Below are positions 3-26,101 of a stretch of DNA of 26,282 nucleotides, piece after piece (position 1 is the stretch's first letter; the number at the start of each line of letters is the position of its first letter). Source of the DNA: a virus. A program made the position numbers and the translations under genes. The stretch covers positions 1-26,282 of the IMG/VR virus record IMGVR_UViG_3300035698_000024, one strand, 5' to 3'. The notes beneath the pieces are model-generated. The model worked only from the letters and a program-made list of their open reading frames with translations, was not told the origin of the DNA and made no database searches.

Positions 3-74
3 CCGATTCGTAAGACCCCGAAAATAGCCCCGTACAGTAACCCGAACAAGTTTAAGCACCCCGAACCCGAATAA
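3..74 (+). CDS. Possible 3' end of a rightward gene cut by the window edge
   Basis: Frame 3 is open from the first bases of the window to a TAA at 72-74. It encodes 23 residues ending in a Lys/Pro-rich tail (for example KTPKIAPYSNPNKF). The tail reads like a protein terminus, but it is too short to recognise. If real, it converges on the terminase small subunit gene, whose stop is at 150. The leftward frames in 1-149 have no ATG; the only long one starts from a GTG at 59 without a good ribosome site. This is an open frame only, and the sequence to the left would decide it. Confidence 0.3.
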   Translation, partial: PIRKTPKIAPYSNPNKFKHPEPE

Positions 75-104
75 AACCGCTTCGGCGCTCTGGCGTGCGT
101 TTCA

Positions 105-148
105 GGGCCTCTCAGGCCCCGCCAAGGGCCGCGCCCACTGCGCAGCCC
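105..148. repeat. Two tandem GC-rich hairpins beside terS
   Basis: Hairpin one has arms GGGCCT (105-110) and AGGCCC (114-119) around a 3-nt loop. Hairpin two has arms 126-134 and 140-148 around a 5-nt loop; it pairs over 9 positions, with one G-U on the leftward transcript and one C-A mismatch on the rightward one. No T-run follows on either strand, so they are not classical intrinsic terminators. They could still end or stabilise converging transcripts, or form a packaging-related site next to the terminase gene. The function is unknown. Confidence 0.5.
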
Positions 149-149
149 T

Positions 150-674
150 CTATTCCGCCACATCTTCGCTATCGCAAGTTATGCTAATTTGTTCGGATTC
201 TATGGGATTTTGTTCAGGTGTTACATCAATCATGCGATCTTTAGCGCGGGTCATAAATTCTTGGAGTTGTTCAACGATTTGATCACGGGTTAGGTTCTCA
301 ACGTTTTCGTGGGTAACGTGGCTACGAGCTACCATGAGTCCTGTTACTTTCAGGCGCAGTTCTTCTGCTTTAATTGCTGCTCCGAAGTTCCCTGCTTCCC
401 ATGCTTCGTCTCTGAGTCGCTGCATATCCCGAACAGATTTGGTTATTGTGACTCCGTACTTGCTTTCGAGTTCGGTTCTCATTTCTTCCATGCGTTCGCG
501 CACGACTGGGTTATTGAGGAGTTGCACGGCTCGCACGTTTGGCGATTTGTAACCGGCTGCTCTTGCTGCTCCTGTCTGGGTCATATCTTTATGAATGTAG
601 TTATCCAGAAACTTCTGTTGTTGTGGCTGCAATCTGCGTCCACCTTTTTCGATCTGCTCACCGACTTTTGGCAT
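150..674 (-). CDS. terS: Terminase small subunit (Terminase_2-like)
   Basis: This 174-residue protein is predicted to recognise phage DNA and hand it to the large terminase subunit for packaging. The N-terminal half (about residues 14-60) matches the usual Terminase_2 pattern: QQQKFLDNYI, then a helix-turn-helix around TQTGAARAAGYKSPNVRAVQ, then LLNNPVVRERM. A charged helical region follows (about 65-150), of the kind used for oligomerisation, and the tail is acidic. The length fits small terminase subunits. The ATG at 674 follows GGAA by 7 nt, and that GGAA belongs to a reversed copy of the CCGAACAA word at 683-690. The gene lies 3 nt after the upstream leftward gene. No large subunit is visible downstream, which is unusual. 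The family assignment is from pattern recognition. Confidence 0.75.
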   Translation of the reverse strand: MPKVGEQIEKGGRRLQPQQQKFLDNYIHKDMTQTGAARAAGYKSPNVRAVQLLNNPVVRERMEEMRTELESKYGVTITKSVRDMQRLRDEAWEAGNFGAAIKAEELRLKVTGLMVARSHVTHENVENLTRDQIVEQLQEFMTRAKDRMIDVTPEQNPIESEQISITCDSEDVAE

Positions 675-677
675 GTT

Positions 678-1019
678 TTATTCCGAACAATTTACTGGGT
701 TATGATTTGGTATTTTGTTTAGGGTTTTTGATCTCATGGCTGACGTGTATTGCGACCCGTCTTGCGCCTGCCATTGTATCCTTGTTGCGTTACCGCCTCT
801 CAGCTTATCCTTGTACTTGTGGACTTCGACGACAACGAAATGGGTTACGACCTTTTTCTTTCCTACTGTGATCAGATCGTAGAACATCTGGCCGACCTCT
901 GGTTCCGAGTGCAGGTAGACCTTATACCTGCCTTTTGCGTCTCGCATGTATTTTGGAAAGTTCAACATCGTTCGACGATACCCCGACAGGCCCGACAGGT
1001 CAACACCATAACAACCCAT
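678..1019 (-). CDS. Hypothetical protein upstream of terS
   Basis: The protein has 113 residues if it starts at the ATG at 1019, or 96 if it starts at the ATG at 968 (MLNFPKYM). The 1019 start has GGGAAG only two bases upstream, which is tight; the 968 start has no clear ribosome site. The product is basic and rich in Lys, Tyr and Val, with an alternating hydrophobic stretch (VVTHFVVVEVHKY) that suggests beta strands. No catalytic motif is evident and I do not recognise the family. It is the first gene of the leftward pair ending in terS, downstream of the hairpins at 1071-1109, so it may be co-expressed with the packaging protein. Confidence 0.55.
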   Translation of the reverse strand: MGCYGVDLSGLSGYRRTMLNFPKYMRDAKGRYKVYLHSEPEVGQMFYDLITVGKKKVVTHFVVVEVHKYKDKLRGGNATRIQWQAQDGSQYTSAMRSKTLNKIPNHNPVNCSE

Positions 1020-1070
1020 TTCTTCCCATACTACAGATCCTCAACATCAGCCCCTTTTCATCCACATCAG

Positions 1071-1109: not shown

Positions 1110-1117
1110 CAGTCATC

Positions 1118-1357: not shown

Positions 1358-1377
1358 TAAAACGGAGTATATATATC

Positions 1378-1551: not shown

Positions 1552-1913
1552 TGACACAGTTTGAAAGCACAGCCAAGGGCCGCATTTTACGCGATTTGAG
1601 CGGCGACCTTATGGATAGCAACCACGCGACACGGCGGATGTTTCGCTGTTGGTTGGACGGTTCTTATCTTGGCGAGGATCACTACCGCGCTAATCTGGAA
1701 TTCATCAAGGGCAATAGCCATGACCGCAAGGCCATGCGTTCTTTTATCATCAACGAGTTCTGTAAGTATTCGGCTCACGATGCGCAATGTTCTGCGGGTT
1801 ACGCGCAAAATGTTATCGCCAAGGCTTTCCCTATCGAGGCTCTTGCGCTTCTCAATGACGCCTTGATTGACGAGGCTATTGAGTTTGGCGCAGAGCAAGC
1901 GGAGGCTGCGTAA
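1551..1913 (+). CDS. Hypothetical early protein
   Basis: This 120-residue protein is coupled to its neighbours by TAATG overlaps at both ends. The middle is rich in aromatic and charged residues (RMFRCWLDGSYLGEDHYR), and the C-terminal third is Ala-rich and helical (ALALLNDALIDEAIEFG). There is no membrane segment, zinc site or nucleotide-binding motif. I do not recognise the family. Position behind P1 and among short coupled genes suggests early expression in infection. Confidence 0.7.
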   Translation: MTQFESTAKGRILRDLSGDLMDSNHATRRMFRCWLDGSYLGEDHYRANLEFIKGNSHDRKAMRSFIINEFCKYSAHDAQCSAGYAQNVIAKAFPIEALALLNDALIDEAIEFGAEQAEAA

Positions 1914-2314
1914 TGTTATATATGGCATATGGAATGAACACGAACAGGGACGCAATGAAAGTACGTTGCCCGAAGGCCAAGGCGTTGGGCGGGTTTTACC
2001 TGCCCGACACACGGTTGGTTTTTCGCGGTGTTGCTGACATTATGCCCGACGAGAACACGATCTGCCCTGTTGTGCTGTGGGAGATCACCGATGATTGCCT
2101 GCGTGCGTTGGATCGGCTTGAAGGTTATCCGACATTATACGGGCGGCGCAAGATGAACGGCGATTGGATCACTTACGAGATGAACGACAAAAGCCGAACA
2201 AGTCCGCCTAATGGTGGCTATTACAAGATGATTGATGATGGCTACAATGATTTTGGCTTGGACGATTACTGGCTGCGGCGTGCTTTAGCCGATGCTGAGG
2301 AGGAAGCAGCATGA
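1913..2314 (+). CDS. Gamma-glutamylcyclotransferase-like (GGCT/AIG2-type) protein
   Basis: The 133-residue protein has the hallmarks of the GGCT-like beta-barrel fold: an N-terminal YGMN motif (6-9), a central PVVLWEIT strand (about 52-59) with a conserved-looking Glu57, and the LDRLEGYPTLYGRR block (about 67-79) typical of AIG2-like proteins. Characterised relatives release 5-oxoproline from gamma-glutamyl peptides or amines; the substrate of phage versions is not established. It may act on a host gamma-glutamyl compound or serve only as a fold. It is coupled to the preceding gene by TAATG and to the next by ATGA. The fold call is fairly secure; the activity is not. Confidence 0.7.
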   Translation: MLYMAYGMNTNRDAMKVRCPKAKALGGFYLPDTRLVFRGVADIMPDENTICPVVLWEITDDCLRALDRLEGYPTLYGRRKMNGDWITYEMNDKSRTSPPNGGYYKMIDDGYNDFGLDDYWLRRALADAEEEAA

Positions 2315-2914: not shown

Positions 2915-2943
2915 CGTGTTTGGAACCCGAACAAGTGTTTGAC

Positions 2944-3278: not shown

Positions 3279-3295
3279 AACAATGGAGAGTTATC

Positions 3296-3703
3296 ATGGG
3301 CTTAGATATGTATTTAACGGGCGACAAGTTCACGCCTACGCATGACAATAAGCACAAGCGTGCTTTAGTTGACGGCTACGAGGTTGAGAGCCAACGGCTT
3401 GCATTAGGCTACTGGAGCAAGAATTGGGCGTTGCACGATTTCATCTCAGAGAAGTACGGCGATGGCGAGAGCAAGGTTGAGCTTAAAGACGAGGAGTTGC
3501 TTGAGATTGCGGACGCTGTTGAGCAGGGGTTGCTGGTTGACCCCAATGACGGCGGTGACATGCCGCATTATCAGGAGGTTTATGCGTATCACAGAGAACC
3601 CGAACAGGTTGCTAATACGGTGAAGATTTTCCGAGATGCTCATGACTGGGTTAGTCGCAATGATGGTTTTTGGCGTGACGTTACATATTACGGGAGTTGG
3701 TGA
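3296..3703 (+). CDS. Phage protein of the GLDMYL type, function unknown
   Basis: This 135-residue protein starts MGLDMYLTG, an opening I associate with a widespread family of phage proteins of unknown role. The family pattern continues with a YW.KNWALHDFI block (about 42-53), a charged middle (VELKDEELLEIADAVEQG) and an aromatic terminus (WRDVTYYGSW). There is no catalytic motif I can name. GGAGAG precedes the ATG, and P2 lies immediately upstream, making it the first gene of the second rightward cluster. The family resemblance is from memory of the pattern and should be read as moderate. Confidence 0.7.
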   Translation: MGLDMYLTGDKFTPTHDNKHKRALVDGYEVESQRLALGYWSKNWALHDFISEKYGDGESKVELKDEELLEIADAVEQGLLVDPNDGGDMPHYQEVYAYHREPEQVANTVKIFRDAHDWVSRNDGFWRDVTYYGSW

Positions 3704-3705
3704 AT

Positions 3706-4230
3706 ATGGCGTTAGAGAATCATCTGATTGATGAAGTAAGCCATACAAAAAACAAGGAGGGGTTGATCATAAGTTATTCATCATACCTTGTCTCTAATCA
3801 GCGTGGCGTAAGTCAGTTTTTTGAGGGTAAGAAGATTTGGTATTTGTCTCAGCAGGCCAAAAGGATTGGAATTATAACGCGAAAAGATTTCTTGAGCACA
3901 ATGCAGATTTATTCTGAGGGTGACACTTACCATTACATTTATTCTTTTATGGGTAAGGATGGGAAATTTTTATACATTGGTCAGACGCAAGACTTTGATG
4001 TGAGGATGAGGCAGCACAAAAGAAAACACTGGTGGGGATCAGTTTTAGAAATACGGTTGGAGCGTTCTTCATCTAGGAAGGTTGCCATTAAAAGGGAGAA
4101 AGACCTTATCCAAAAACTCCGTCCTAAGCACAATAAGGAGTTTTTGAGCAACCCGAAAAAGCTGAAGAACGGGGATGTTCCCCCAGTTGTTAACGTAAAA
4201 ATCGACTTAGAGAGGATTAGTGATGAGTAA
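3706..4230 (+). CDS. GIY-YIG nuclease-domain protein
   Basis: The 174-residue protein has a GIY-YIG nuclease core in its second half: YIY at 77-79, YIG at 90-92, a helix with Arg100/Arg102 and RQH, the metal-binding-type Glu131 in REKDLI, and Asn143. In known family members these residues cut DNA; roles range from homing to repair and host DNA degradation. The first 70 residues are unlike other domains I recognise and could bind DNA. The ATG at 3706 lies 9 nt after GGGAG; TTG at 3697 and GTG at 3700 are alternatives. All key positions are filled, so the nuclease is probably active. It may be a free-standing homing enzyme or an early nuclease. Confidence 0.8.
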   Translation: MALENHLIDEVSHTKNKEGLIISYSSYLVSNQRGVSQFFEGKKIWYLSQQAKRIGIITRKDFLSTMQIYSEGDTYHYIYSFMGKDGKFLYIGQTQDFDVRMRQHKRKHWWGSVLEIRLERSSSRKVAIKREKDLIQKLRPKHNKEFLSNPKKLKNGDVPPVVNVKIDLERISDE

Positions 4231-4402
4231 GATTGGAAATTATGTGGTTGAGATGCAGGAGATGGTAAGCACCCGACCCTGTCCATATTGCAATGGTGAT
4301 GGGCAGGTAGAGGTTGCTTTAGCTCCCGATTGCTTCCGCGAGGATGATTGCGAGAACTGCAACGGTTCTGGAGAAATTGTATTGGAGGATGAAGATGAGT
4401 GA
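4223..4402 (+). CDS. Small DnaJ-type zinc-binding protein
   Basis: The 59-residue protein carries two CxxCxGxG motifs, CPYCNGDG (20-27) and CENCNGSG (43-50), spaced to bind one zinc as in the cysteine-rich central region of DnaJ. It lacks the J-domain. The acidic tail ends EDEDE. The start at 4223 follows AGAGG and overlaps the end of the GIY-YIG gene by 8 nt. It may be a protein- or nucleic acid-binding zinc module; a chaperone role alone is unlikely. HMO-2011-type marine phages are known for a DnaJ-like central domain inside their DNA polymerase; here the module stands alone. Confidence 0.75.
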   Translation: MSKIGNYVVEMQEMVSTRPCPYCNGDGQVEVALAPDCFREDDCENCNGSGEIVLEDEDE

Positions 4403-4463
4403 GCGTGATATGGAACGTATGTTGGACGAGGTTTTTGAAAAAGTATTCGGGAGTAAATGGTAA
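4395..4463 (+). CDS. Possible 22-residue peptide
   Basis: A GGAGG at 4384-4388 lies 6 nt before the ATG at 4395. The frame ends at TAA 4461-4463. It overlaps the zinc protein gene by 8 nt and the next ATG by one base (TAATG). The product, starting MSERDMERMLDEVFEKVFG, would be an amphipathic helix. It is supported only by ribosome site and coupling, and may act as a leader that aids translation of the next gene. Confidence 0.4.
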   Translation: MSERDMERMLDEVFEKVFGSKW

Positions 4464-4747
4464 TGGAGAAACCGACTTTTCGTTACTTGCTTGACCGCTT
4501 GGGCGATGTGAAGACGCAATCTGATCTTGAGGATGTTAAGTATGAGATTGAGGGGTTTTTGCCCCTTGATCGCTTTGAGGAAACTCAGGATTTTGACGTT
4601 AACTCTGCAATTTTTAAGGTGAAGCGTGACTACGTTGAGCGTGCTTTGGTGAAGTCCGACACGTTATACGAGGCTTCGGACTTGCTTGGCTTAAAGAGTT
4701 ATCAGGTTTTAGTTAACTGGATGAAGAAGCTAGGGATTAAGAAATGA
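4463..4747 (+). CDS. Small protein with C-terminal Fis-type HTH
   Basis: The 94-residue protein ends in a Fis/NtrC-type helix-turn-helix (about 56-92): RDYVERALVKSD, then TLYEASDLLGLKSYQVLVNW, then MKKLGI. This matches the pattern of HTH_8 domains. The N-terminal half is acidic and helical. The ATG at 4463 is 9 nt from GGGAG (4449-4453); the ATG at 4457 is only 3 nt away, so 4463 is preferred. It could bend phage or host DNA or act as a regulator; no partner is visible. It is coupled downstream by ATGA. Confidence 0.65.
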   Translation: MEKPTFRYLLDRLGDVKTQSDLEDVKYEIEGFLPLDRFEETQDFDVNSAIFKVKRDYVERALVKSDTLYEASDLLGLKSYQVLVNWMKKLGIKK

Positions 4748-4962
4748 TCTTCTGGCATTTACTTGTGTTGACCTACACTGTTGAGGAGCACACGTTTGAG
4801 GCGATGATTGCGTTTAAAGACCAGTTAAGTTGCGCTGCGGCTATGGATAAGATTTATCCTGTGATTTATTCGGAATATCGTGATAGCATGGCGCAATGTA
4901 TTAAGACTGAAGATGCGTCTGGTTATACGGTTAGGCCAAAACCGCGTCCGAAAGGTTTATAA
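4744..4962 (+). CDS. Hypothetical small protein
   Basis: This 72-residue protein starts inside the stop of the Fis-type gene (ATGA). It opens with a hydrophobic strand (MIFWHLLVLTYTV), then a helix containing SCAAAMDKIYPVIYSEY, and ends in a basic Pro-rich tail (RPKPRPKGL). Short proteins of this shape are common among phage early genes, but I cannot assign a function. The N-terminal segment is too short and interrupted to be a clear membrane anchor. Confidence 0.65.
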   Translation: MIFWHLLVLTYTVEEHTFEAMIAFKDQLSCAAAMDKIYPVIYSEYRDSMAQCIKTEDASGYTVRPKPRPKGL

Positions 4963-5174
4963 TGAGTTTAACTCCTGAGCGTGTGGAGAAAATTATTTCG
5001 GGTGTCTTGCAAGAGATACCCGATGACGACCTTTCTTTGTCTGACATGCGAAATTTAGTTGTCGAACTTTTATTCGGGTTAGGTTTGAATCCGAGAGATA
5101 TGCCGTTATTTTTGATAATCTTGGTTGATGCGTATATGGGTGAGCGAATAGTTGATCAAATAAAGAAAGGGTGA
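4962..5174 (+). CDS. Hypothetical small helical protein
   Basis: The 70-residue protein is coupled to the previous gene by TAATG. It is acidic and predicted all-helical, with a hydrophobic stretch in its second half (MPLFLIILVDAYMG) that is probably a buried helix. No motif is recognisable. It is followed by a 34-nt gap holding a CCGAATAAGTTAAG variant of the dispersed word and then the Gly/Gln/Tyr-rich gene. Confidence 0.65.
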   Translation: MSLTPERVEKIISGVLQEIPDDDLSLSDMRNLVVELLFGLGLNPRDMPLFLIILVDAYMGERIVDQIKKG

Positions 5175-5208: not shown

Positions 5209-6207
5209 ATGGCTACACCCTCACCTTTTGCCACCAGTTTTAGGCAAGACCTTTCTTCGATGCAGGGAAACCCTCAGTTTATGGGTGGTATTGGGTCTAT
5301 GCTTCAGCAGTACCGAGCGCAAATGGGAGGTGGACAGCCTCAGCCCGCACAGTCTCAACCCCAGCCCGCGATGAATCAAATGGGTGGAGCAAACGCTCTA
5401 CGGGAAGGTTTTCGCGCAAGAATACCAGAGCAGTATCAAATACCAGAAATGCCGTCTGCGAATATCTCAATAGCGCAACAACAACCACGATCACGACCCA
5501 CGACGTTTGGCCCAGAAAGTTTTGGGACATTTGCTCAGCGGTTAGAACCCGCAAACCCATTCGCAAACAACGAGCAGTACAATGCGATGATGGAATATCA
5601 GAAGTCCATGCAGCCTCAGCAAGAGCAGATGGACCGCATGAATGAGTTGCGCACGGCTTTTGAGGGCACTGGCGGCTATAAGGATTACCGCATTAGCCAG
5701 ATGGAGCAGCAGTTACAGCAGCGGCAACAGAACCCTCGGATGGGCATGGGCCTTGGTGGTATGCGCCCGACAGGTATGAATATGTTCGGCGGAATGCCTA
5801 GACCGCAGCAGAATGTGTATGGCGGTCAGCGAGGCTTTGGAGGCAACCCGAACAACTATGGTGGCGGACAGCAGGGCGGTTACGGTATGCCGCAGATGCC
5901 ACAGCGCAACCCTTACCAACAGGGCGGTTATGGCGGTTATGGTCAGCAGCAAGGTGGTTACGGGATGCAGGGTGGTTACGGTCAGCAGAATCAGTACCAA
6001 CAGCAGCAATATCAACAGCCTCAGCAACAGTATCAAAGCCCGTACCAACAGGCACGTCCGCAACCGCAACAGTTTGGCGGCTACGGCATGGGTCAATCTT
6101 CACAAGGTGGGTATGGTGGTTACGGCGGCATGTCGAACGCTTACACGCCTCAACAATACGGTCAACAAATGGGCGGTCAACCCCAACAATTTGGTAGAAT
6201 GTATTAA
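5209..6207 (+). CDS. Gly/Gln/Tyr-rich prion-like low-complexity protein
   Basis: This 332-residue protein has no recognisable enzyme domain. Residues 1-180 are Gln/Met/Pro-rich with short helices (for example YNAMMEYQKSM). Residues about 180-332 are almost only Gly, Gln, Tyr, Met, Pro and Asn, built from irregular GGYG, YGQQ, QQYQ and QQFG repeats ending GQPQQFGRMY. The tail has regularly spaced Tyr and very few charges, as in phase-separating prion-like domains of FUS/TAF15 type. GGAGAG lies 5 nt before the ATG. It is the last gene of the second rightward cluster. A role in a phage condensate, in binding nucleic acid or in the virion are all possible. Confidence 0.8.
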   Translation: MATPSPFATSFRQDLSSMQGNPQFMGGIGSMLQQYRAQMGGGQPQPAQSQPQPAMNQMGGANALREGFRARIPEQYQIPEMPSANISIAQQQPRSRPTTFGPESFGTFAQRLEPANPFANNEQYNAMMEYQKSMQPQQEQMDRMNELRTAFEGTGGYKDYRISQMEQQLQQRQQNPRMGMGLGGMRPTGMNMFGGMPRPQQNVYGGQRGFGGNPNNYGGGQQGGYGMPQMPQRNPYQQGGYGGYGQQQGGYGMQGGYGQQNQYQQQQYQQPQQQYQSPYQQARPQPQQFGGYGMGQSSQGGYGGYGGMSNAYTPQQYGQQMGGQPQQFGRMY

Positions 6208-6344: not shown

Positions 6345-6383
6345 GATCATTCTCTTGGAAGTCCGTACCTGTTTTTCATCTGA
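6228..6383 (+). CDS. Doubtful 51-residue ORF in the convergent gap
   Basis: An open frame with GTG start at 6228 (or 6234) runs to TGA at 6381-6383. Its product has protein-like composition, including GYFDWLRCYQTAP and GHPHDHSLGSPYLF. It overlaps the 3' end of the leftward gene at 6347 by 37 nt, and there is no good ribosome site. It coincides with the inverted repeat, so the apparent composition may be incidental. Confidence 0.2.
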   Translation: MWVVSSNKNTLSHGNDGYFDWLRCYQTAPNDLNINGHPHDHSLGSPYLFFI

Positions 6384-6652
6384 GTAACGGATTGGTGTGA
6401 CGTTCCGAATATTTCGGCTATGTCGGCCACTGTCATACCTTTGATCAGCATCTTATTTACCGATGAGGCTTTCTGACTGAGTTCTAGGAGCTTTGGCGCT
6501 CCGCCCAGCTTACCGAAGTGTCCGGTAGATGCGTATTGTGGTATTTTAAGTTTTGAGTTCATTGCTCTATCAGTTTTGTTTTGGTTTTCCCAAGCTCTTT
6601 TGTATATGTCTTGGTACTTGTTAATTTGCCATTCTTGTAATTCTTGTTTCAC
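6347..6652 (-). CDS. Small HTH protein, last gene of the leftward replication block
   Basis: This 101-residue protein has a C-terminal helix-turn-helix (about 62-98): NKMLIKGMTVADIAEIFGTSHQSVTQMKNRYGL, given here as the pattern GMTVADIAEIFGTSHQSVTQ with flanking helices. It resembles resolvase-type or sigma-region-4-type HTHs. The N-terminal 45 residues are basic and helical. Its start overlaps the stop of the upstream gene by one base. It may be a late-acting regulator of the leftward operon, though no target is shown. Confidence 0.65.
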   Translation of the reverse strand: MKQELQEWQINKYQDIYKRAWENQNKTDRAMNSKLKIPQYASTGHFGKLGGAPKLLELSQKASSVNKMLIKGMTVADIAEIFGTSHQSVTQMKNRYGLPRE

Positions 6653-6822
6653 TATTCCACGTCCTTTTCGGCTTTTAGTTTTGTGTCAAGTATTTCTAGG
6701 AGAGCTTCGATCTCCTCCATTTGTTGCTTGACCGTATGGTTCCCCCTTTCGTCGGCCCTTTTTCTTGCCGTCATAGCGCACCGTCTAGTCCTCTCTAAAA
6801 CTATAGCAATATCTACGTCCAT
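6652..6822 (-). CDS. Small coiled-coil-like protein
   Basis: The product has 56 residues from the ATG at 6822 (MDVDIAIVLERTRR), which follows GGGAG by 7 nt; a longer frame to 6873 lacks a ribosome site and would overlap the preceding gene more. The C-terminal half (QQMEEIEALLEILDTKLKAE) shows a heptad pattern. No family is recognised. It overlaps the upstream DUF3846-like gene by 10 nt. Confidence 0.6.
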   Translation of the reverse strand: MDVDIAIVLERTRRCAMTARKRADERGNHTVKQQMEEIEALLEILDTKLKAEKDVE

Positions 6823-7040
6823 CGTGCGTCTCCCTTCAGAATGATTGCATCGCCTACAATGCCTGTGTCGCACATCTTTGAAGCCTCTTCGTTGAAGGGT
6901 AGTCCTTTTAGAAGTCCCTCTTCGTTAACGAGCACTTGGATGTCTGGGTCAGTTGGTGATCGAACCATCTCGACTAATCCACCGACCAGTTCTTGCGCAC
7001 GTTCTAATGACGGCGCTTTTGTTTCGAATACATGAATCAT
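6813..7040 (-). CDS. DUF3846-like small protein
   Basis: The 75-residue product starts at the ATG at 7040 (MIHVFETKAP) behind GGAGA; the longer frame to 7136 runs through the inverted repeat and is rejected. The arrangement ELVGGLVEMV, then VLVNEEGLLKGLPFNEEAS, then GIVGDAIIL matches the pattern of DUF3846 proteins found in many environmental phages. The function of that family is unknown. The gene is preceded by a promoter-like sequence at 7071-7099 and may be expressed apart from the primase gene. Confidence 0.65.
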   Translation of the reverse strand: MIHVFETKAPSLERAQELVGGLVEMVRSPTDPDIQVLVNEEGLLKGLPFNEEASKMCDTGIVGDAIILKGDARWT

Positions 7041-7070
7041 ATCTTTTCTCCTATGTGATCTGGGATTATT

Positions 7071-7099
7071 ACCATAGGTTCCCACCCGGCGCAAGACAA
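7071..7099 (-). promoter_or_regulatory. Candidate leftward promoter for the last three small genes
   Basis: On the leftward strand TTGTCT (7099-7094) is followed by 17 nt and TATGGT (7076-7071). It lies directly after a terminator-like inverted repeat and 31 nt before the ATG at 7040. It lacks the TCTAGTA element of P1 to P3. The match to consensus is moderate. Confidence 0.35.
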
Positions 7100-7101
7100 A
7101 A

Positions 7102-7128
7102 GTTAACAAACTACCGGGTTTTGTTAAC
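7102..7128 (-). terminator. Inverted repeat, probable weak terminator after the primase gene
   Basis: GTTAACAAA (7102-7110) and TTTGTTAAC (7120-7128) form a perfect 9-bp stem with a 9-nt loop. Read leftward, it follows the stop of the primase-helicase gene by 17 nt and is followed by TTTTGTC. The stem is AT-rich, so an operator role is an alternative. A copy of CCGAACAA abuts it at 7129-7136. Confidence 0.45.
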
Positions 7129-7145
7129 CCGAACAACTTATCGGA

Positions 7146-9365
7146 TTATAAATTATCTCGACCTGTCTGGCGCTCGTATTCCCCGCATGACAGTGGACCA
7201 CCAGAAACGCCGAGCCACTTTTCTGTTCCGCCAGTTGACAGTGAGTATTTGCGGATAAGCCCTTGGGTCATTGCGATTTTAACTGTGTCTTTGACAGTTG
7301 TTACGCCGAGTCCTTGAATAACAATAACGCACGGCTCCTGTGGTGGAGTAAGCATTGCTGTGTTATAGACGCCATCCTCTGAACCTCCGAGGGTAACGGC
7401 GCGGCCTTCGTTTTCACGCATACGAATGTAGTCTACGATGTGAGCCACGCGATCTCTTGTTGCCTGAGACATAAGAACTGAGCGTAAATCCGCTGATCTA
7501 TCCACCAGTAGGCCAGTGTCGGGATCACGAATGAAGTTACGGATGTCGCGGTTGGCTGGTCCGTTTGACTTTACGACTGCGCCATCGAACACTGCGTTAC
7601 GCGAGTATTCCACGCCGAGGTCACGACAGCGTTGTTTACCTGTGCCTTCATCGACAGACCAGACTGCGAATGCAGAACGCACGCCATCAACGATAGCGGA
7701 TGTACCTCGAATAAGGTTACGCGCTTGTTCCGGTGTTGTGACTGGTTCGTTGTCTTTGATCTTCGCCATGTGGTGATTGACCATGACAGTTGCGCCAGTT
7801 TCGGTTGCCATCTGAGCGAGTAGGCCCATGAAAGCAGCCCCAGCGGCAGGGTCAGCGTTTACATCTGCGTGAACGAATGATGCCATAGGGTCAATTACGA
7901 TTAGTTTTAGCTCAGAAAACTCTAGCATTTGGTCATAGATGCGCGAGAACTCTTCGCCCATCAGATAGCTATTGTCGAACTTTTGCATGATTGGGAAAAC
8001 GCCACCAAGGTTGGGTAGAGGCAGAACCCGCAGCTTGTGTGCATAGCTTTCTCTTGCACGTTTGGGGTCAAGGCGCGATATGCGCCTGTGCATTTCGTCC
8101 TTGTCATCTTCCGCAGTGATTAGGATTACATCTCCGTGCTCTGTAACTGTGCCACCGAACGAGCTTTGCATTGGCGTACCGGATGCGATCTTCATTGCGA
8201 GGTCTAGCGTCATCATGCCTTTACCACTGTCACCAGCGGCGGCGAATACGCATGGAACTCCAAGAGGAATTGTATCTGCGATCAGGAACTTCTGCTCTGG
8301 TGGCCTGCCAATAAAGTATTTGTTTACAATCAGGCTGTCATCAAGCAGGGAGATTGGCTTCTTGATTTTGCTTTCCTGCGACTTGATGAACTTTTCGATG
8401 TCAAAGCCTTCGTCAAGAGCGTCAGCAGCGTCCCACTTCTCTTCCTTTGTGGATGGGATTTTAAGTGTGAGAGTTGTTTTGGCTCCAGCTTCCTTGGCTC
8501 CAGCTTCGACAATGCGTGATAGTTTCTTGCCAGCGTCATCGTTGTCAGGCCATAGGATCACTTCTTTGTTGCGCAGTGGCGTGAAGTCAAACTTCTGTGC
8601 TGTGTTTTCGGAGAGCATACCCGCACCACCAATGGTACAGGTTGCTGCGTATCCTAGCTGAGTTAGAGCATCTGCGCACTTCTCGCCTTCGACCCAGATG
8701 ATTTTATCTGCGCCCAAAATGTTCGGGATATTGTATAGGGGTCTAGGCTCCGGGATTCCTTGACGGCCATCCATGAATTGACGGAATTGTTTCTTTGGCT
8801 TCCCGGCGCTATCCCGAACAATTTCTCCGGTTACGTCCCGGTCAAAGTATTTGCGAACGGTAACGAGAACTACACCATCGGCGTCCGTGTAGGAATATTC
8901 ATCCTCGAATGGCGTGCTGGGGCTTATAGATCGTTTTTGTTCGGGTTGTTGTGGCGCGGCTGCGGGAGGTGGAGTTGCCATGACAGAGAAGTTAACTGGA
9001 TTGTTCGGCTTAACGATATTGACAGGTGGGGCAACGTAGTCTTGCGAGATGTAATCTTTGAAGTGATCAAAGGTTTCGGCAAGGGAATATCCACGGCCTT
9101 CTTTTAATATTTTAGAGATGCCACCAACACCATCGCCTGACTCGAAATCTTTACCGCTCAGAAACCAAGGACTGCTAGTGTCGATGTTTATGACCAAAGA
9201 CCTTCCGGCCTCACCTCTCAGCGATCCAATGAAGAACTCCTTACCTCTTCGGACGCCTGCTGGGTATGTATCTACCAGTGCTTGCAACTGTATGCTGCGA
9301 GGAACTTCGCTTGAAATTCTCTTTGCGACCTCTCTCGCCGTCTTGCCAAAACTTAAAATATTCAT
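7146..9365 (-). CDS. Primase-helicase: TOPRIM domain fused to a RepA-like ATPase
   Basis: This protein of about 739 residues is probably the replicative primase-helicase. A TOPRIM domain covers about 220-295, with VEGEKCADAL (acidic EGE near 226) and the DND triad near 274-276. A RepA/AAA_25-type ATPase follows (about 355-560), with Walker A GDSGKG near 378, a TAEDD strand, and Walker B LIVIDP near 488, then a VNHHMAK sensor. The C-terminal 120 residues look like a winged helix. No N-terminal cysteine zinc finger is present, unlike T7 gp4. The ATG at 9365 follows AGGGA by 8 nt and is preferred to the GTG at 9383. It is the largest gene of the leftward operon. Confidence 0.8.
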   Translation of the reverse strand: MNILSFGKTAREVAKRISSEVPRSIQLQALVDTYPAGVRRGKEFFIGSLRGEAGRSLVINIDTSSPWFLSGKDFESGDGVGGISKILKEGRGYSLAETFDHFKDYISQDYVAPPVNIVKPNNPVNFSVMATPPPAAAPQQPEQKRSISPSTPFEDEYSYTDADGVVLVTVRKYFDRDVTGEIVRDSAGKPKKQFRQFMDGRQGIPEPRPLYNIPNILGADKIIWVEGEKCADALTQLGYAATCTIGGAGMLSENTAQKFDFTPLRNKEVILWPDNDDAGKKLSRIVEAGAKEAGAKTTLTLKIPSTKEEKWDAADALDEGFDIEKFIKSQESKIKKPISLLDDSLIVNKYFIGRPPEQKFLIADTIPLGVPCVFAAAGDSGKGMMTLDLAMKIASGTPMQSSFGGTVTEHGDVILITAEDDKDEMHRRISRLDPKRARESYAHKLRVLPLPNLGGVFPIMQKFDNSYLMGEEFSRIYDQMLEFSELKLIVIDPMASFVHADVNADPAAGAAFMGLLAQMATETGATVMVNHHMAKIKDNEPVTTPEQARNLIRGTSAIVDGVRSAFAVWSVDEGTGKQRCRDLGVEYSRNAVFDGAVVKSNGPANRDIRNFIRDPDTGLLVDRSADLRSVLMSQATRDRVAHIVDYIRMRENEGRAVTLGGSEDGVYNTAMLTPPQEPCVIVIQGLGVTTVKDTVKIAMTQGLIRKYSLSTGGTEKWLGVSGGPLSCGEYERQTGRDNL

Positions 9366-9433: not shown

Positions 9434-10215
9434 TACTCTTTCCAGCATGTTTCACGAAACTCGCAAAACTTGCATAAGAAGAAATCTTTACTTTGAGCAA
9501 TACGCGGTAAAATGTCATTGGCTTTTGCAGCCGTCAAGATGTTAACCGCGCGGTCACTTGCCTCTTGAGCGAGCTTTGCATTGTATGGCACCAATTCGTA
9601 ATACACTTCTGAGGTGTTTTTATTTACAACCGTGAACAATGCGGGGTTTTTGCTCAGGTCCATGTAGGTCTGGTATAGCGCCAATTGCGTTGCGTAGGTC
9701 TTGTTTGCCTTCTCAACACCATGCCGAACGAATGCTTTGAACTTGCTATCGTTAGCCGACTTGCATTCCCATAGTGATGGATAGGCCATATCGACTGGGC
9801 CATCACAAACAACGCCATCAATGTGTCCTTTGATCTCGCCATCAGCGATAGAGAAACCAAACTGCTTGCCGTCCTTGTCTTCTGTGCGAAGGTCAAAACC
9901 AGCGTCTCTGAGCCACTTTGATGCGTAGTCCTCAATCTCATGCCCGAACTGGAAGATGCGCAGTGTACGGGCCGTAAAAGCCTTGTCAGGATCAATGGGT
10001 TGGTTCAGGTAGCGGTACTGTATTTTGCGAGAGCATTCATCGCCAATACTTGATGCGCCGATATACTTGCGGCGCTCGCGCTTTTCTTCTCCTGCAACAA
10101 TCGCGTTATCCACTGCCTCAGTAATCTGTTCGGCAATAGGGTCTGTCCTAGAACGGGATTGAAGTAGAGGGCCAAGTGCCTGTTGACTTAAAGTAAGTGT
10201 CTTCGAGTTTTCCAA
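9433..10215 (-). CDS. Cas4/RecB-like PD-(D/E)XK exonuclease with Fe-S cysteines
   Basis: The 260-residue protein has the RecB-family nuclease layout: His92-Glu93 in FGHEIEDYAS, GHIDG near 130-134 with the metal-binding Asp133, and ECK at 150-152 giving the (D/E)XK pair. Cys61 plus Cys248, Cys251 and Cys257 match the four ligands of the 4Fe-4S cluster in Cas4- and AddB-type nucleases. Such enzymes resect DNA ends for recombination. The start is a TTG at 10215 behind GGAG; no ATG is available in the N-terminal region. It overlaps the upstream gene by 68 nt. No cas1, cas2 or CRISPR array is present, so it is a phage recombination nuclease rather than an adaptation protein. Confidence 0.8.
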   Translation of the reverse strand: MENSKTLTLSQQALGPLLQSRSRTDPIAEQITEAVDNAIVAGEEKRERRKYIGASSIGDECSRKIQYRYLNQPIDPDKAFTARTLRIFQFGHEIEDYASKWLRDAGFDLRTEDKDGKQFGFSIADGEIKGHIDGVVCDGPVDMAYPSLWECKSANDSKFKAFVRHGVEKANKTYATQLALYQTYMDLSKNPALFTVVNKNTSEVYYELVPYNAKLAQEASDRAVNILTAAKANDILPRIAQSKDFFLCKFCEFRETCWKE

Positions 10216-10375
10216 TGTTTATCTCCGCTGCTAGACGTTTTGATTCTTGAATTCCAAAAATTAGGGTGTGGACTTGCTCTTCTGTAAGATCAGAAAAGCG
10301 TGTGCTCCATCCGAATATCCCTAATATATGGGCCAGTTCCTTCATTGGTTCTGGCGCTGCTTCCATGTTGCTCAA
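10148..10375 (-). CDS. Hypothetical small protein with TTG start
   Basis: The 75-residue product starts at TTG 10375, 8 nt after AGGAG and overlapping the stop of the upstream gene (TTGA); the ATG at 10366 is 18 nt from any ribosome site. It contains a helical segment (PMKELAHILGIFGWS) and another (EEQVHTLIFGIQESKRLA). No family is recognised. The 68-nt overlap with the exonuclease gene in another frame is larger than elsewhere in the operon, so its C-terminal part is constrained by two frames. Confidence 0.55.
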   Translation of the reverse strand: MSNMEAAPEPMKELAHILGIFGWSTRFSDLTEEQVHTLIFGIQESKRLAAEINIGKLEDTYFKSTGTWPSTSIPF

Positions 10376-18300: not shown

Positions 18301-18390
18301 AAGCGCGCGCGATATTTTAAGCTCGTCAGCAGCGGAAATATCTTCTGAGCTTAATGCCCTAATTAAACGGAGTTCGTCTTGAGCGTTCAC
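15319..18390 (-). CDS. Large putative internal virion (DNA ejection) protein
   Basis: The protein has 1023 residues. The N-terminus has a twofold short repeat (DELRLIRALSSE / DELKISRALDSG). A LRAKISFGETAEEKELIL segment near 80-97 recalls conserved N-terminal parts of large virion proteins in marine phages. Residues 149-188 are a Gly/Ala-rich hydrophobic stretch (GAVIGGVLGAPGLVTGAVGA) that could insert in a membrane. The remainder is long helical. Size, place at the end of the virion block and the hydrophobic segment suggest an ejection protein, by analogy with T7 gp14-16. The start is GTG 18390 behind GGAGG, overlapping the upstream stop (GTGA). No lysozyme motif is seen. Confidence 0.65.
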   Translation of the reverse strand: MNAQDELRLIRALSSEDISAADELKISRALDSGKGSADDILGRPKSNIGMDRAPSFSDLRASASDRDDGFDYDTGAAGGLRAKISFGETAEEKELILRKIVGEEGYTKDSKGLLALTEAGQLSQGMEPIGQNLIIEDEGFSMRDISDLAGIAPETIGAVIGGVLGAPGLVTGAVGAAAGAGLGQAAEEGIESLLGIQRQSLGEVGIDVAREAALAGTLDFAGNAIFKLGKMAIGAAGKGVNAGARAMGQVERELGADQANLALKIMDADVPGQPSYAAAGMPAGIAKASQIAGAIGGNEQKRAMANIRFALNEKEKLLGEAGISTVDDLAEVIRNSVPAKAKQLEDGLKAAQGAHMKAIDDTISMLTKTTKSGGEIDDFVLESLVKNYEEFMKQSKIQFQNVDNTLSGVKGRVTINGVEKEVVGGEMPIFDIKAMKTRFGDIIDSQYAGANKVAPDEFLEIGRQIDQLNAVGAKEGFTTFNGLKELRKNINDTLMDPALGIKDTTPRRLLNGLKSDIDRMMDPSNYKSGGLKLTGVGGAQNAKTVKKAMGQLLDARASYRGEIKLFNDLETLGIIRNLGDSGENVKLTAGRLFDRITDSPKRIAAVLNSADSSLSQISREELRQTLAKSYLDDALLVANKDFGDPLAFNGVQFNNKIKKLGKSGKLLFGDQWGEVQSLSKALSYNGVKKIDDQIMQRIIAQNPSDNIVQTLKSVKDAQIGLDKALSTKALKNLADGTIAPEEAASLLLSRNTSASQMDRVMGFFNGNDAAKETIRRTIISDILGSVDEDIFVNEAAASSLRKALEAYKPDMLNKVLGKQAVDDIRELSEMLVLLSDTGKKGAGSLAADAIRTGMVTNPAVNFKKGMRFKALNYMLNNPQTLRAAIAMKAGRTSPQATAQSLSQALNESFAQATGSGASLTERATGAGKSLVAGLQAANRGQTAVRQGGARALFADQEARGIAPQAPRTSVPEVSMPMSVDDLQITQSVDPQFVRQQMNLRERAKSNPYIASTLLGGLGNVGLL

Positions 18391-20123
18391 TTATAATCCT
18401 CCATTTTTCGAGGCTTTTGCCCACTAGCTATACGGCGTTGGTTAATAAGGTCAAGTTCGGCAGGACTAGGGGCATTGCTACCTTGATCCGCAGATATAGA
18501 AATTCCAAAGTTTTTCTCTAAATTACCAACAGCAGTATCTAAGTTTGTTTGAGCCTGTGAGACTGTAAAGTTATATATGTCCTCAATTTGATTTAATATC
18601 AACACAGGGTCGTTGTTAAAAAAGCTAATTTCACCCACACGTTCACTGACTAGCTTTCTGTCACCATCAGACAACGTTTTTCCTGATTCTTTAAGTATGT
18701 CAGTAGCGTTATCAATAGAAAAGTTTTTAAGTGCTTGCTTCGCTTGAGCCGTATTTGATGGCATACCACCAGCAGGAGTGTAACCTATGGCGCGGAAGAA
18801 TCCTGTTACTTTATCAAGAGCCTGACCGGGGACGCTTACGCCAGCTTCGATGTTTTTAATTAGTTTTTGGAATGTGGCTTTGTCCTTGTTAATCCCCTCT
18901 TGGTATCCAACAAATCTTTCTACGACCTGACCGGAATCTTCCCCCAATTTATATTTGGAAGATGTGGCCCCACTGTAATTTGGATTGGCAGCAACACCGC
19001 TAACCACTAGCGCGGCGGGTTGATCTTCCCACTTTCCACCAACAAGTGAGACTGGCTCATACTTAGCACCCCAAGCGTCACCTAAGTCTTGACCTTCTGC
19101 GCGTTTAGCAAGAACATCCATGCGGTCAGCCGCGCTAATGAACTCATACTGAGACTCAAATTTAGGATCATTTATAAGTTTATTAAGCTCATACTTGTTC
19201 AACGGAACGAGTTGCCCTTTGTCAAATCCAGAGAACTCAGCACCCGGCTCTCCGCGCTCGTAAACCCAATATGAACCTCTGTTCATGATTTTTTCTTCGG
19301 CGGCGGCGCGAGTGGCTTTATCAGCGGATTGAGTTTGCAGAGCGTACTTACCGCCAGCAAGAGCGCCTTCACGGGCAAGGTTCTTAGCGCGTTGGAGTGC
19401 AGGCATAGCCTTGTCTCCAGCTTCACCAACAGACGTTAGCATCTTACTAACGTTAAAGCTCTTACCAGCTTTGTTCTGCATAAGAGCAAGACCAAACGCC
19501 ATAAGCGCATCTTTCTTATCTACTTTGCCGTTAGTATCAATTCCTGTGGCCTCAGAAAAAGCCTTCTTGTATTCTTCAATGGTACGCTTTTCAGGTACCG
19601 CTGGCCCAGCGCCACGCGCGGACTCAAAGAAGTCATCCATAGCAGCGAGGAAGCCTTCGTCCGTCTGCTCTTGAGTAACAGCAAATTCACGATCTCCGGG
19701 CTTTTCAACTACAGTACCACGACCACCTTCAACTGTTGAAGGCATTATGTCCAATGCAGCAAGAGTAGTAGCTATATCGTCTACTTCTGCATCAACGCCC
19801 AATCCGCCAAACTCGCCTTCAGGACCACCAAAAAACATATTGGGCTGATCTGCTCCGGCCTCAATGTCTGCGAACTGTGACATTTGTTCGGCTAACGCGG
19901 CTTCTTCATCCATTTTAGCCTGACCCGCTTCGGTTGGAGAACCCAAGTAGTCAATAATCTGGCCCGGAGCCGCGAGCATTGCATCGCCAATATCTTTATT
20001 TGTCTCATATAGCCAAGATGGAATCTTTAACATTCCTTGACCAAAAGCACCAATTTGAGTGTCAGCAGGCTCCATGCCAAAAGGACCAGATGCGTTTATT
20101 CCACTGTTGTTCGGATCAGCCAT
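18387..20123 (-). CDS. Putative virion-associated protein
   Basis: This 578-residue acidic protein has no recognisable enzyme motif. Its N-terminal 90 residues are Gly/Met/Pro-rich (SGPFGMEPADTQIGAFGQGM). The middle contains an EF-hand-like loop (DTNGKVDKKDALM, about residues 195-207) with alternate Asp/Asn/Asp residues that could bind calcium. The C-terminal half is helical. It sits between two large virion-type genes and is coupled to the next, so an internal virion role is likely. GAGG precedes the ATG at 20123, and a CCGAACAA copy overlaps codons 4-6 (20107-20114). Confidence 0.6.
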   Translation of the reverse strand: MADPNNSGINASGPFGMEPADTQIGAFGQGMLKIPSWLYETNKDIGDAMLAAPGQIIDYLGSPTEAGQAKMDEEAALAEQMSQFADIEAGADQPNMFFGGPEGEFGGLGVDAEVDDIATTLAALDIMPSTVEGGRGTVVEKPGDREFAVTQEQTDEGFLAAMDDFFESARGAGPAVPEKRTIEEYKKAFSEATGIDTNGKVDKKDALMAFGLALMQNKAGKSFNVSKMLTSVGEAGDKAMPALQRAKNLAREGALAGGKYALQTQSADKATRAAAEEKIMNRGSYWVYERGEPGAEFSGFDKGQLVPLNKYELNKLINDPKFESQYEFISAADRMDVLAKRAEGQDLGDAWGAKYEPVSLVGGKWEDQPAALVVSGVAANPNYSGATSSKYKLGEDSGQVVERFVGYQEGINKDKATFQKLIKNIEAGVSVPGQALDKVTGFFRAIGYTPAGGMPSNTAQAKQALKNFSIDNATDILKESGKTLSDGDRKLVSERVGEISFFNNDPVLILNQIEDIYNFTVSQAQTNLDTAVGNLEKNFGISISADQGSNAPSPAELDLINQRRIASGQKPRKMEDYK

Positions 20124-23299: not shown

Positions 23300-23352
23300 T
23301 GTACTAACCTCGTAATTACTTATCTCAAGTTACCAAATGTTCCTGAAAAATA

Positions 23353-23583
23353 CTAGAGCGTTGACCCAGAAATTGCCACAGGCATAGTAACCTGAACATT
23401 TGTACTTCTTTTTTCCGATCCTGTCCAACTTTGACCACAATCGGGGCAGTTACCATCCGGGTAGGACGCAATTTCTTCCGGTGTGTCTACAGCATTTTCG
23501 CAATTTATGCAATAAACTGTATCTATGCTACCAGATGGACGCCACTTAGAGCCGTTTGACATTGTAATAATTGTATCAGTCAT
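23353..23583 (-). CDS. Small zinc-ribbon protein
   Basis: This 76-residue protein carries four cysteines as CINC (25-28) and CPDC (46-49), the spacing of a rubredoxin-like zinc ribbon. The N-terminus is short and polar, and the C-terminus (NVQVTMPVAISGSTL) is strand-like. Its ATG overlaps the stop of the upstream gene (ATGA). Small zinc-ribbon proteins are seen among virion genes of related phages; the role is not known. Confidence 0.65.
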   Translation of the reverse strand: MTDTIITMSNGSKWRPSGSIDTVYCINCENAVDTPEEIASYPDGNCPDCGQSWTGSEKRSTNVQVTMPVAISGSTL

Positions 23584-23876
23584 GAGATTGTCACCGTTAC
23601 TGTTCCGACAGAACCTGTCGCTTGTGATCCTTGAACGTATGGAGAATAGGGTAAAGGGACCCGCAATTGCCCACCGTGATTAAAGACGGCACCAGCTTCT
23701 AGGCCGGAGTCGTCTGTCTGCAAATTAGTAAAGACCGTAAACGTGTTGCGGCCCTCACCGGGATTTTGAATGTTTTGCATATAAACTGAGTATGAGCGCA
23801 AAACCTCAGCAAAATATTGCGGATCGTATTGATCCGGCGGTATTGGGAAGAACGGGAGTATAAGGTTGCGAGACAT
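23580..23876 (-). CDS. Small virion-region protein
   Basis: The 98-residue protein has a Pro/aromatic N-terminus (LPFFPIPPDQYDPQYFAEV), a helix (LRSYSVYMQNIQNPGEG) and a strand-rich second half with TNLQTDDSGLEAG and a GSVGTVTVTIS terminus. I associate this layout with short proteins next to the tail stabilisation gene in environmental podovirus-like phages. It overlaps the stabilisation gene by one base (TAATG) and the zinc-ribbon gene by 4 nt (ATGA). Function is unknown; a tail or head-tail role is inferred. Confidence 0.6.
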   Translation of the reverse strand: MSRNLILPFFPIPPDQYDPQYFAEVLRSYSVYMQNIQNPGEGRNTFTVFTNLQTDDSGLEAGAVFNHGGQLRVPLPYSPYVQGSQATGSVGTVTVTIS

Positions 23877-25990
23877 TAACGCCTCCCGTCAGGCCGAATG
23901 TCCACACGCGGGGAACCTAGCCTCCATGCAACACCAGTGTCTTCGCTTTCGATCCTGAACGCAAAAGACCTACCCCTAAGCCGAACAAATACCTGCTCGG
24001 TGAATTGCTCTACCGGGATACTGGCTGTTTTAGTCACTGACCGCGAGTCTGAGGCGAGGTAATTTCCGCCGGGGAAATTCCTGACCTTCAACGTCATAGT
24101 CGCTTGAGGCGTCTCGGCAGTAGAGTTACGGAAGGTTAAGTCAGGAATGAGCCTGCGCATGAACGCAAACTGGTCGCCCTCGCCCAAGTCCATTTGACTG
24201 CTTTCAATATACGATGAAATTGCACTTGCTGGGCTTGTACTTCCATCATCAAACCCAATCTCTTGCAGATACAGGTAATGATCAGGAGACGCGGCAAGTG
24301 GGTCGATGTTAACACCACGATCCAGCCAGCATGTGCGAGACATCAAGCCATAATACCAGATTTTCTGATCATAGTTGTATGTGACGTAGCTGTCGTTCTC
24401 ACCGCTTGAACCGGATGGATAGAACCAAGTTACCTCAGAAAAGGCAGTGTTTAGCCCAGCAGTCACCTTCTCAAGTTGATCGTTATTGATGTTAGAGAAC
24501 ACATAATCACGAACTGAGCATGGGATACGTTGTACTGCACCGCCGTAAGCGTAAAACTCCTCAGCGCCCATCCAGAATACATTATCTTCGACGGCAATAG
24601 CGGCCAGTGGGCTTGCAATTGTTATATTCTCTGAGATTGAGTTAATGCCGAATGTGAATGGGGGGCCAAGGTACTGCATCGCGTGTAGAGAACTATCAGT
24701 AAATACAAGGACTTGCTGACGAGTCTCAAGGGCTGTAATGATCTTAGAACCTGAACCGATACGCAAGTCGCCTGCGGTGTTGTCCACAAGTGATTGCCAT
24801 TCAAGGATGTTTTCTTGGTCGGAGAATCTAATAAGTAGAGGGTCTTGCACGCCCGGATTTAGTTCGGAGTCGCACCCAAAGGCAATAACGTGGCGGTCAC
24901 GGTCAGATACCATGACTTGCTTTGCTACTGTTGGAACTTTGTTCGCTCCTGCTATAGAGGAAAGTTCGACGGCTCTTGTGGACGTTCCATTAGTTCGGTC
25001 CCAATAGAAGATGTCGCCATCACGAACATTCATAAGCAAGTCTTCGCCAAAGTTGTCATGTGACCATATACGCAAAGTCTGTCCAGATGCGGACAATGAT
25101 GTCCCTGAACCCCAAGCACCACGGCTCCATGTACCAGCTCCCCAACCGTTACCAACGATTGTTGTGTCGAGGCCAGTGTTGATCTGGTATGTGCCAACGA
25201 TAGAACCGCCGCCATTCCCAGAATCTGCTGAAGTTGCAAAAACATACGTTGGGTTTAGGCCAGTAGTTGTTGTAATGCTGCCAATTGTGCTCACAGTGCG
25301 AGCCTCTACTTGGTAGCTATTGTCGTTTATAATTAAAGTTATTTCGTACTCTTGGTTAAGTATGTCTGCCGTGACCGCTCCGCCAAGAGAAGCTGCCGCA
25401 GAAAATGTCACAAAGTCATCTTCCAAAGCCCCGTGATTACTGTCCGTTACGATCAATGTGGCGCAGTCTACAGCGGCACCTGACGTGTGTGTCGCAGCTA
25501 TTGTGTCATTGACACCGCGCGTACATCCAATCAGATTGTTGCCGCTCAAACCACCGTATGTAATTATCTCACTGTCAATTTTAATGCGCCCAGCCGAAGG
25601 AAACCCAGAAGATGACGTTAGGGGAATCACAGAGTCAATAACGGCTACATTGGCAGAAATGGTGTTGGCGCTTGCGTCGAATGTAACCTCACCAGCCGAA
25701 GTGGTTGTACGAATCGGCGTAATGTCGTTATAACCACCGCCTTCGTTAATGTAGTATTTTAGGTGCGTACCAACGCCCAAGTAATTCGTGCCATCTAGCG
25801 CCACCCAAGGGTGAAGTGCGCGACAAGTTCCTAAAAACGTTTTGGTAGATGACTTTATCCAGCCGCCTATCTTTTCAGGATACCCAAAGCGAAACCGAAC
25901 CTTGTCCATGTCAAACCAACCACCTTCGTTGCTATACGAAGTGGTTTCACGGTTGATACCGGGGCGGAATTGAAGTTTCTGTAACGGCAT
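23876..25990 (-). CDS. Tail stabilisation protein (P22 gp10-like)
   Basis: This 704-residue protein resembles the packaged-DNA stabilisation proteins of podoviruses, which plug the portal-tail channel after packaging. It opens PLQKLQFRPGINRETTSY and GWFDMDKVRFRFGYPEKIGG, characteristic of the family in environmental phages, and continues with beta-propeller-like repeats (for example IFYWDRTNG, HVIAFGCDSE, VFTDSSLHAMQYLG, NVFWMGAEEFYAYGG). An Ig-like, Ser/Thr-rich insert lies at about 100-280. The ATG at 25990 follows GGAG by 7 nt; an in-frame extension to 26020 has no ribosome site. It precedes the coupled small virion genes. Confidence 0.75.
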   Translation of the reverse strand: MPLQKLQFRPGINRETTSYSNEGGWFDMDKVRFRFGYPEKIGGWIKSSTKTFLGTCRALHPWVALDGTNYLGVGTHLKYYINEGGGYNDITPIRTTTSAGEVTFDASANTISANVAVIDSVIPLTSSSGFPSAGRIKIDSEIITYGGLSGNNLIGCTRGVNDTIAATHTSGAAVDCATLIVTDSNHGALEDDFVTFSAAASLGGAVTADILNQEYEITLIINDNSYQVEARTVSTIGSITTTTGLNPTYVFATSADSGNGGGSIVGTYQINTGLDTTIVGNGWGAGTWSRGAWGSGTSLSASGQTLRIWSHDNFGEDLLMNVRDGDIFYWDRTNGTSTRAVELSSIAGANKVPTVAKQVMVSDRDRHVIAFGCDSELNPGVQDPLLIRFSDQENILEWQSLVDNTAGDLRIGSGSKIITALETRQQVLVFTDSSLHAMQYLGPPFTFGINSISENITIASPLAAIAVEDNVFWMGAEEFYAYGGAVQRIPCSVRDYVFSNINNDQLEKVTAGLNTAFSEVTWFYPSGSSGENDSYVTYNYDQKIWYYGLMSRTCWLDRGVNIDPLAASPDHYLYLQEIGFDDGSTSPASAISSYIESSQMDLGEGDQFAFMRRLIPDLTFRNSTAETPQATMTLKVRNFPGGNYLASDSRSVTKTASIPVEQFTEQVFVRLRGRSFAFRIESEDTGVAWRLGSPRVDIRPDGRR

Positions 25991-26101
25991 CAGCAATCTC
26001 CAGTTGGAGTTATTATACACAAAAGTTCGGTTTGCACCAGTGTTAGGTTTAAACCGATGAATTGTTCGAGTTATCTGATTTTTACAAATAAACCGAACAA
26101 G

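Follow-up and report, generated by a model that had tools for sequence, protein, structure and literature searches.

Twenty-two-base-pair palindromes dispersed through an uncultured phage lineage, and a ribbon-helix-helix protein as their candidate binder

Why should one 8-bp word recur throughout the DNA of a virus, inside genes as well as between them? The question is raised by a 26,282-base stretch (positions 1 to 26,282 of the IMG/VR record IMGVR_UViG_3300035698_000024; hereafter, the window), in which the word CCGAACAA occurs 15 times, nine times on the plus strand and six times on the minus strand. The word makes up one half, the better kept of the two, of the 22-bp palindrome AACCCGAACAATTGTTCGGGTT, which recurs across the relatives of this phage and is kept by selection on the DNA itself. 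The likeliest binder of these palindromes, as dispersed operators, is a small ribbon-helix-helix (RHH) protein encoded at window positions 15101-15322.

From a repeated word to a selected palindrome

An initial annotation of the window had claimed 15 copies of CCGAACAA where about one was expected. A recount found exactly 15, and Markov models built from the window predict 0.97 (order 1), 0.90 (order 2) and 1.16 (order 3) copies, rising to 2.97 (order 4) and 7.5 (order 5), the last two values being too high because, in a sequence of 26 kb, it is the motif that dominates the counts. Even order 5 accounts for just half of the copies observed. The word ranks first among all window 8-mers for over-representation, while the reversed word, used as a control, has one copy. 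In the coding part of the window, 11 copies were observed against a mean of 1.65 (maximum 5, n=60) in synonymous shuffles that keep proteins and codon usage; since the sites, which occur on both strands, also fall in all three reading frames, peptide or codon bias is ruled out as the cause, as the annotation had argued. CCGAACAA is likewise enriched in nearly all relatives of sufficient length to judge. Neither result that the annotation had named as refuting, a Markov prediction of similar size or a lack of enrichment in relatives, was seen. Among the next most enriched words of the window are CCAGCTTC/GAAGCTGG, with 10 copies versus ~1 expected and enrichment in relative L001 too, and TGAGCTTAA, with 5 copies versus 0.3 expected.

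Flank alignment and iterative refinement over ~280 loci converged on the palindrome AACCCGAACAATTGTTCGGGTT. Its consensus, CGAACAATTGTTCG, has the LexA-box-type core GAAC-N4-GTTC, and the information in the motif reaches across 22 bp. The model was seeded with CCGAACAA, and four of the 10 window sites (5057, 16046, 23387 and 26049) do without that word. With a position weight matrix (PWM) score of >12 bits as the threshold and order-4 Markov simulations as background, the window holds 10 palindromes versus 0.2 simulated. The ~55-kb relatives hold 16-22 each, with <1 expected (G018, 19; G019, 16; G020, 22; G002, 18; simulated, 0.4-0.8), and the network amounts to roughly 15-25 palindromes per 55-kb genome. 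The earlier idea of a genome-wide binding site is thus supported, with the amendment that the word is just one half of the site. The sites of the window, and the two genes most relevant to their interpretation, are as follows.

42-49, plus strand: CCGAACAA copy 1, within AACCCGAACAAGTT (PWM 8.5 at 37-62); edge of the cluster beside terS
150-674, minus strand: terminase small subunit gene (terS, phrog_51), adjoining the phased cluster; rival candidate binder
189-196, minus strand: CCGAACAA copy 2, 3' end of terS, 147 bp from copy 1
678-703: palindromic site, PWM 19.0; contains CCGAACAA at 683-690, plus strand
2194-2201, plus strand: CCGAACAA half-site in the GGACT-like gene, PWM 9.0
2922-2947: palindromic site, intergenic, PWM 22.1; contains CCGAACAA at 2927-2934, plus strand
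5057-5082: palindromic site inside the 70-aa gene 4962-5174, PWM 15.9, no exact 8-mer; homologous place occupied in G001, G002, G019 and G020
5848-5855, plus strand: CCGAACAA half-site in the Gln/Gly-rich gene 5209-6207
7124-7149: palindromic site in the gap 5' of gene 6813-7136, PWM 23.0; CCGAACAA at 7129-7136, plus strand
8809-8834: palindromic site inside the primase/helicase gene, PWM 25.6; CCGAACAA at 8814-8821, plus strand; homologous site in G001, G002, G003 and G019, weaker in G020
8937-8944, minus strand: CCGAACAA half-site, primase gene
9001-9008, minus strand: CCGAACAA half-site, primase gene
15101-15322, plus strand: gene for the 73-aa RHH protein, best candidate binder
15473-15498: palindromic site near the 3' end of the 1023-aa structural gene, PWM 18.0; CCGAACAA at 15486-15493, minus strand; conserved in G019
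16046-16071: palindromic site inside the 1023-aa structural gene, PWM 17.4, no exact 8-mer; conserved in G019 and G002
19871-19896: palindromic site inside gene 18387-20123, PWM 13.8; CCGAACAA at 19884-19891, minus strand
20107-20114, minus strand: CCGAACAA half-site near the start of gene 18387-20123
23387-23412: palindromic site in the 76-aa gene 23353-23583, PWM 17.2, no exact 8-mer; conserved in G001, G003 and G019
23981-23988, plus strand: CCGAACAA half-site within the gene for the 714-aa stabilization protein, which runs on the other strand
26049-26074: palindromic site, intergenic, PWM 25.7, no exact 8-mer
26093-26100, plus strand: CCGAACAA copy 15, intergenic, 39 bp past the preceding palindrome; a strong site 39 bp ahead of a weaker one recurs in G001 and G022

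Selection on the sites is visible at synonymous positions, where the annotation had proposed to look for it. Among codons of residues unchanged between two genomes, compared pairwise over nine genomes, 72% are identical inside coding sites versus 48% outside. When the sites were moved at random within the same genes, the observed identity of 73.0% stood against 51.4% (standard deviation 2.9%, maximum 60.5%, 2000 trials), an excess of 7 standard deviations; the genome pairs are not independent, yet the random-placement test uses identical pairs. Homologous places in orthologues often carry a site, even at 55-80% protein identity, and the proteins that share homologously placed sites are 55-88% identical. 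About half of the sites are inside genes, with the stronger half-site aligned with its gene in 33 cases and opposed to it in 33, i.e. without orientation bias. Those in non-coding DNA are mostly in gaps >250 bp, and 21 of 38 such gaps hold one. The early/replication region is the denser one, with 72 sites in 107 kb versus 36 in 190 kb of the late region (p ~3e-7 with the cluster thinned), and in G002 nearly all sites are within a 17-kb early arc.

Where genomes cover the place, about 3-6 strong palindromes form an array that adjoins terS, in a non-coding region next to a switch in gene direction. Spacings of about 51, 60, 73, 92, 104, 114 and 128 bp recur within it and are fitted best by a period of 10.6 bp (nominal Rayleigh p ~2e-5), a helical phasing. 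The window starts inside this array, whose edge occupies positions 37-201, and the 147-bp spacing between the first two copies of the word is 147 bp in G001, 146 bp in G004 and 148 bp in G002. Short GCAGC and CCCGA(A/T)C repeats are abundant between the palindromes of the array region (e.g. L294 13330-14000 and L084 1380-1960), and CCCGAACCCGAA is found at the window start, near 60-71. The latter is echoed in contig C30 of G034 (L393), a related phage contig without the palindrome, which has tandem CCCGAA hexamer repeats at 9713-9740, 10287-10330 and 11589-11640, just left of its own terS (~11960-12502).

The phage, its relatives and its hosts

The window carries terS, small early genes in a rightward block, replication genes in a leftward block (primase/helicase, Cas4-type exonuclease, helicase, SSB-like, Sak4-like and Holliday-junction-resolvase-like) and structural genes that also point leftward. 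No near match to it was found among isolated phages, the closest of which share some proteins only, at 30-40% identity. The isolates CRP-902, DSL-LC04 and HTVC023P were dropped as model relatives, having 0 copies of CCGAACAA, no RHH protein and no comparable palindrome. Also rejected was an apparent pairing of a divergent RHH protein with the motif in C30, a contig of a metagenome-assembled genome (MAG), where the enriched words belong to the local CCCGAA repeat and not to palindromes. Complete relatives are ~55-56 kb; G018 (55,718 bp) appears complete, as the sequence at its end corresponds to that immediately preceding terS in G019. Binning placed one contig of the clade with a Rhodobacteraceae MAG and a related contig with a Maricaulis MAG, so the hosts are likely alphaproteobacteria.

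Six long genomes, one of them apparently complete, contain no tyrosine integrase (PF00589), serine recombinase (PF00239) or ParA (PF13614), and no HTH_3 repressor common to all six was found. The absence of the first three points to an operator network of a lytic phage rather than to lysogeny operators, and the lineage, which is uncultured and marine, is apparently lytic. An Rfam scan of the window gave no match, and a literature search for the motif sequence found nothing relevant among the papers listed. Among other genes, a GIY-YIG nuclease-type gene (window 3697-4230; Pfam E 3.5e-10) was not found in the relatives compared, which suggests a recent insertion or homing gene. The GGACT-type gamma-glutamyl cyclotransferase gene (window 1913-2314) is conserved together with an amidoligase-type gene, which in G019 (3283-4356) is on the far side of terS and carries a conserved palindrome.

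Candidate binders and competing explanations

Which protein might bind the palindromes was narrowed by comparison with 78 alphaproteobacterial prophage loci. These encode a Sak4 that is 55-63% identical, and most have related Cas4-type exonuclease, helicase and SSB-like genes; they lack both RHH and a TerS of this family, and their 1.25 Mb holds 0 palindromes, versus 201 palindromes in 0.74 Mb of clade loci. The replication proteins, which thus occur without the motif, are thereby removed as binders, leaving RHH and TerS among the recognizable DNA-binding proteins. Two further candidates were rejected: a Fis-like protein (4457-4747) is absent from motif-bearing G023, G036 and G035, and a helix-turn-helix protein (6347-6652) was not found in G001, G002, G022 and G023.

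Wherever a motif-bearing contig reaches the position of the RHH-type gene, the protein is present: in all ten genomes compared, in L295 and L296 and, at just 40-47% identity, in a distant subclade (G036, G035 and G032). G031 gave no match, but its contig ends before that position. The assignment to RHH draws on Pfam RHH_5 (PF07878), which matched four of the 14 proteins of the family (best E 9.3e-6, with an Arc match at 0.02), and on helices at 14-26 and 30-55 in the AlphaFold monomer, where the strand ahead of them is not formed. A sequence search of the PDB gave weak matches only. In the main clade, the DNA-binding part is followed by a conserved terminal tail, GGxxSVxED, and the proteins of the distant subclade end differently (...LGIGSAK); the tail may be a partner-binding peptide.

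On balance, it is probable that AACCCGAACAATTGTTCGGGTT is the operator of one DNA-binding protein, likeliest the phage RHH protein, in a dispersed network that includes the array beside terS and that would act by looping, damping of the early region and/or compaction. The RHH protein would occupy the array cooperatively, and DNA looping would connect the array to auxiliary sites in genes and promoters; as an outcome, early-region transcription would be damped or switched off and/or phage DNA would be compacted during lytic infection. A phased array with orientation-free auxiliary sites fits cooperative binding and looping. Several points weigh against this proposal. The window RHH protein itself gives no Pfam match (below reporting levels); its AlphaFold monomer is of low confidence (predicted local distance difference test score, pLDDT, 64); and a fold search with that model was uninformative. 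The presence of RHH is confounded with clade membership, and the distribution of TerS is identical. No good palindrome stands in front of the RHH gene, which counts against RHH as the binder since many RHH repressors regulate themselves. Finally, repression and compaction are outcomes that we infer.

The foremost alternative, itself unlikely, is that TerS binds the sites, with the array as pac and the scattered sites as weaker places for loading or retention. In its favour, terS and the array are direct neighbours in the genomes covering the array, TerS has the same distribution as the motif, and the long contigs are cut at differing places, with G018 closing on itself, as headful packaging predicts. 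Against these points, ~20 selected genome-wide sites would make packaging prone to start in the wrong place, packaging gives no reason for the crowding of sites in the early region, and we know of no pac repeats resembling a 22-bp palindrome. The packaging cue that the annotation had considered may apply to the cluster beside terS but leaves the selected sites within genes all over the genome unexplained. RHH is the preferred candidate over TerS because a short palindrome read in many copies is typical of an RHH operator.

More doubtful is the possibility that the sites are lysogeny operators or stoperators, at which an immunity repressor would silence a prophage. The stoperators of cluster A mycobacteriophages (L5, Bxb1), which are asymmetric, bound by the immunity repressor and predominantly of one orientation relative to transcription, are similar in number to the present sites and, like them, are family-conserved, genome-wide copies of one site (PMC6550527). 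Comparable too in number and spread is SPBRE of SPbeta, ~ten 15-bp sites in promoter regions that are bound by the recombinase-like MrpR to keep lysogeny; there too, as predicted here, a single DNA-binding protein encoded by the phage has an operator repeated across the phage (PMC10516654). Unlike the mostly one-way stoperators of temperate phages, the present sites are palindromic and orientation-neutral, and for that reason are not a stoperator set; moreover, about half are inside genes, and no lysogeny genes were found. From SPBRE they differ in being 22-bp palindromes, in occurring in coding DNA too, and in having an RHH protein as candidate binder. The lack of integrase, serine recombinase, ParA and a shared HTH_3 repressor makes both lysogeny operators and a partition centromere less likely.

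Binding by a host protein, whether a nucleoid, SOS or cell-cycle factor, is very unlikely. The GAAC-N4-GTTC core is similar to the LexA box of Gram-positive bacteria and has its spacing, but the LexA boxes of alphaproteobacteria are direct repeats and the information in the motif stretches beyond the core to 22 bp. In addition, CCGAACAA shows little enrichment (28 copies versus 15 of the reversed control) in a 4.1-Mb MAG, a candidate host-type genome that carries related phage contigs, and the palindrome is missing from the prophage loci and their flanks. The near-absence of enrichment in that genome, the rarity of the word in prophage loci and the palindromic form of the site also speak against the Chi-like or uptake-type word suggested earlier. 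Just as improbable is an array that serves as a replication origin, or as a segregation centromere with dispersed secondary sites: a palindromic array in non-coding DNA beside a gene-direction switch would suit it, and plasmid centromere binders include RHH proteins, but the six long genomes have no ParA-type ATPase, GC skew merely tracks gene direction, and secondary sites in coding DNA are left unexplained.

A probable variant of known operator systems and what it may mean

P22 Arc, CopG and T4 DsbA (Pfam Arc, RHH_5 and Phage_DsbA) are small dimeric beta-ribbon DNA-binders with short inverted operators, that of Arc being ~21 bp. The palindrome is likewise a short inverted site, and members of the candidate's family match RHH_5. 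To our knowledge, most RHH repressors have a single operator or a few, whereas here there are ~20 selected sites and a phased array. Systems of the lac type combine auxiliary operators within coding sequence, helical phasing of sites and DNA looping; extra sites inside genes and helical phasing are shared by the present set, which is genome-wide where lac has two or three operators. The set would be a variant of the dispersed phage operators, sharing the principle of one protein and many sites but differing in orientation and in the link to lysogeny.

Among phages, networks of dispersed operators have been described for a few temperate systems. Here, sequence alone reveals one in an abundant, uncultured and apparently lytic lineage; its sites are palindromic, neutral in orientation and selected within coding sequence. 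Phage genes thus come under a further constraint at the level of DNA, an unannotated 73-aa protein can be put to a specific and inexpensive test of binding, and one may ask why a lytic phage would need twenty operators. One bold and rather doubtful reading is that a single tiny RHH protein and ~20 selected palindromes fold the whole genome into a looped nucleoprotein structure that times expression or packaging. If true, this would be a phage-encoded chromosome-organizing system without lysogeny, with half of its palindromes hidden in genes.

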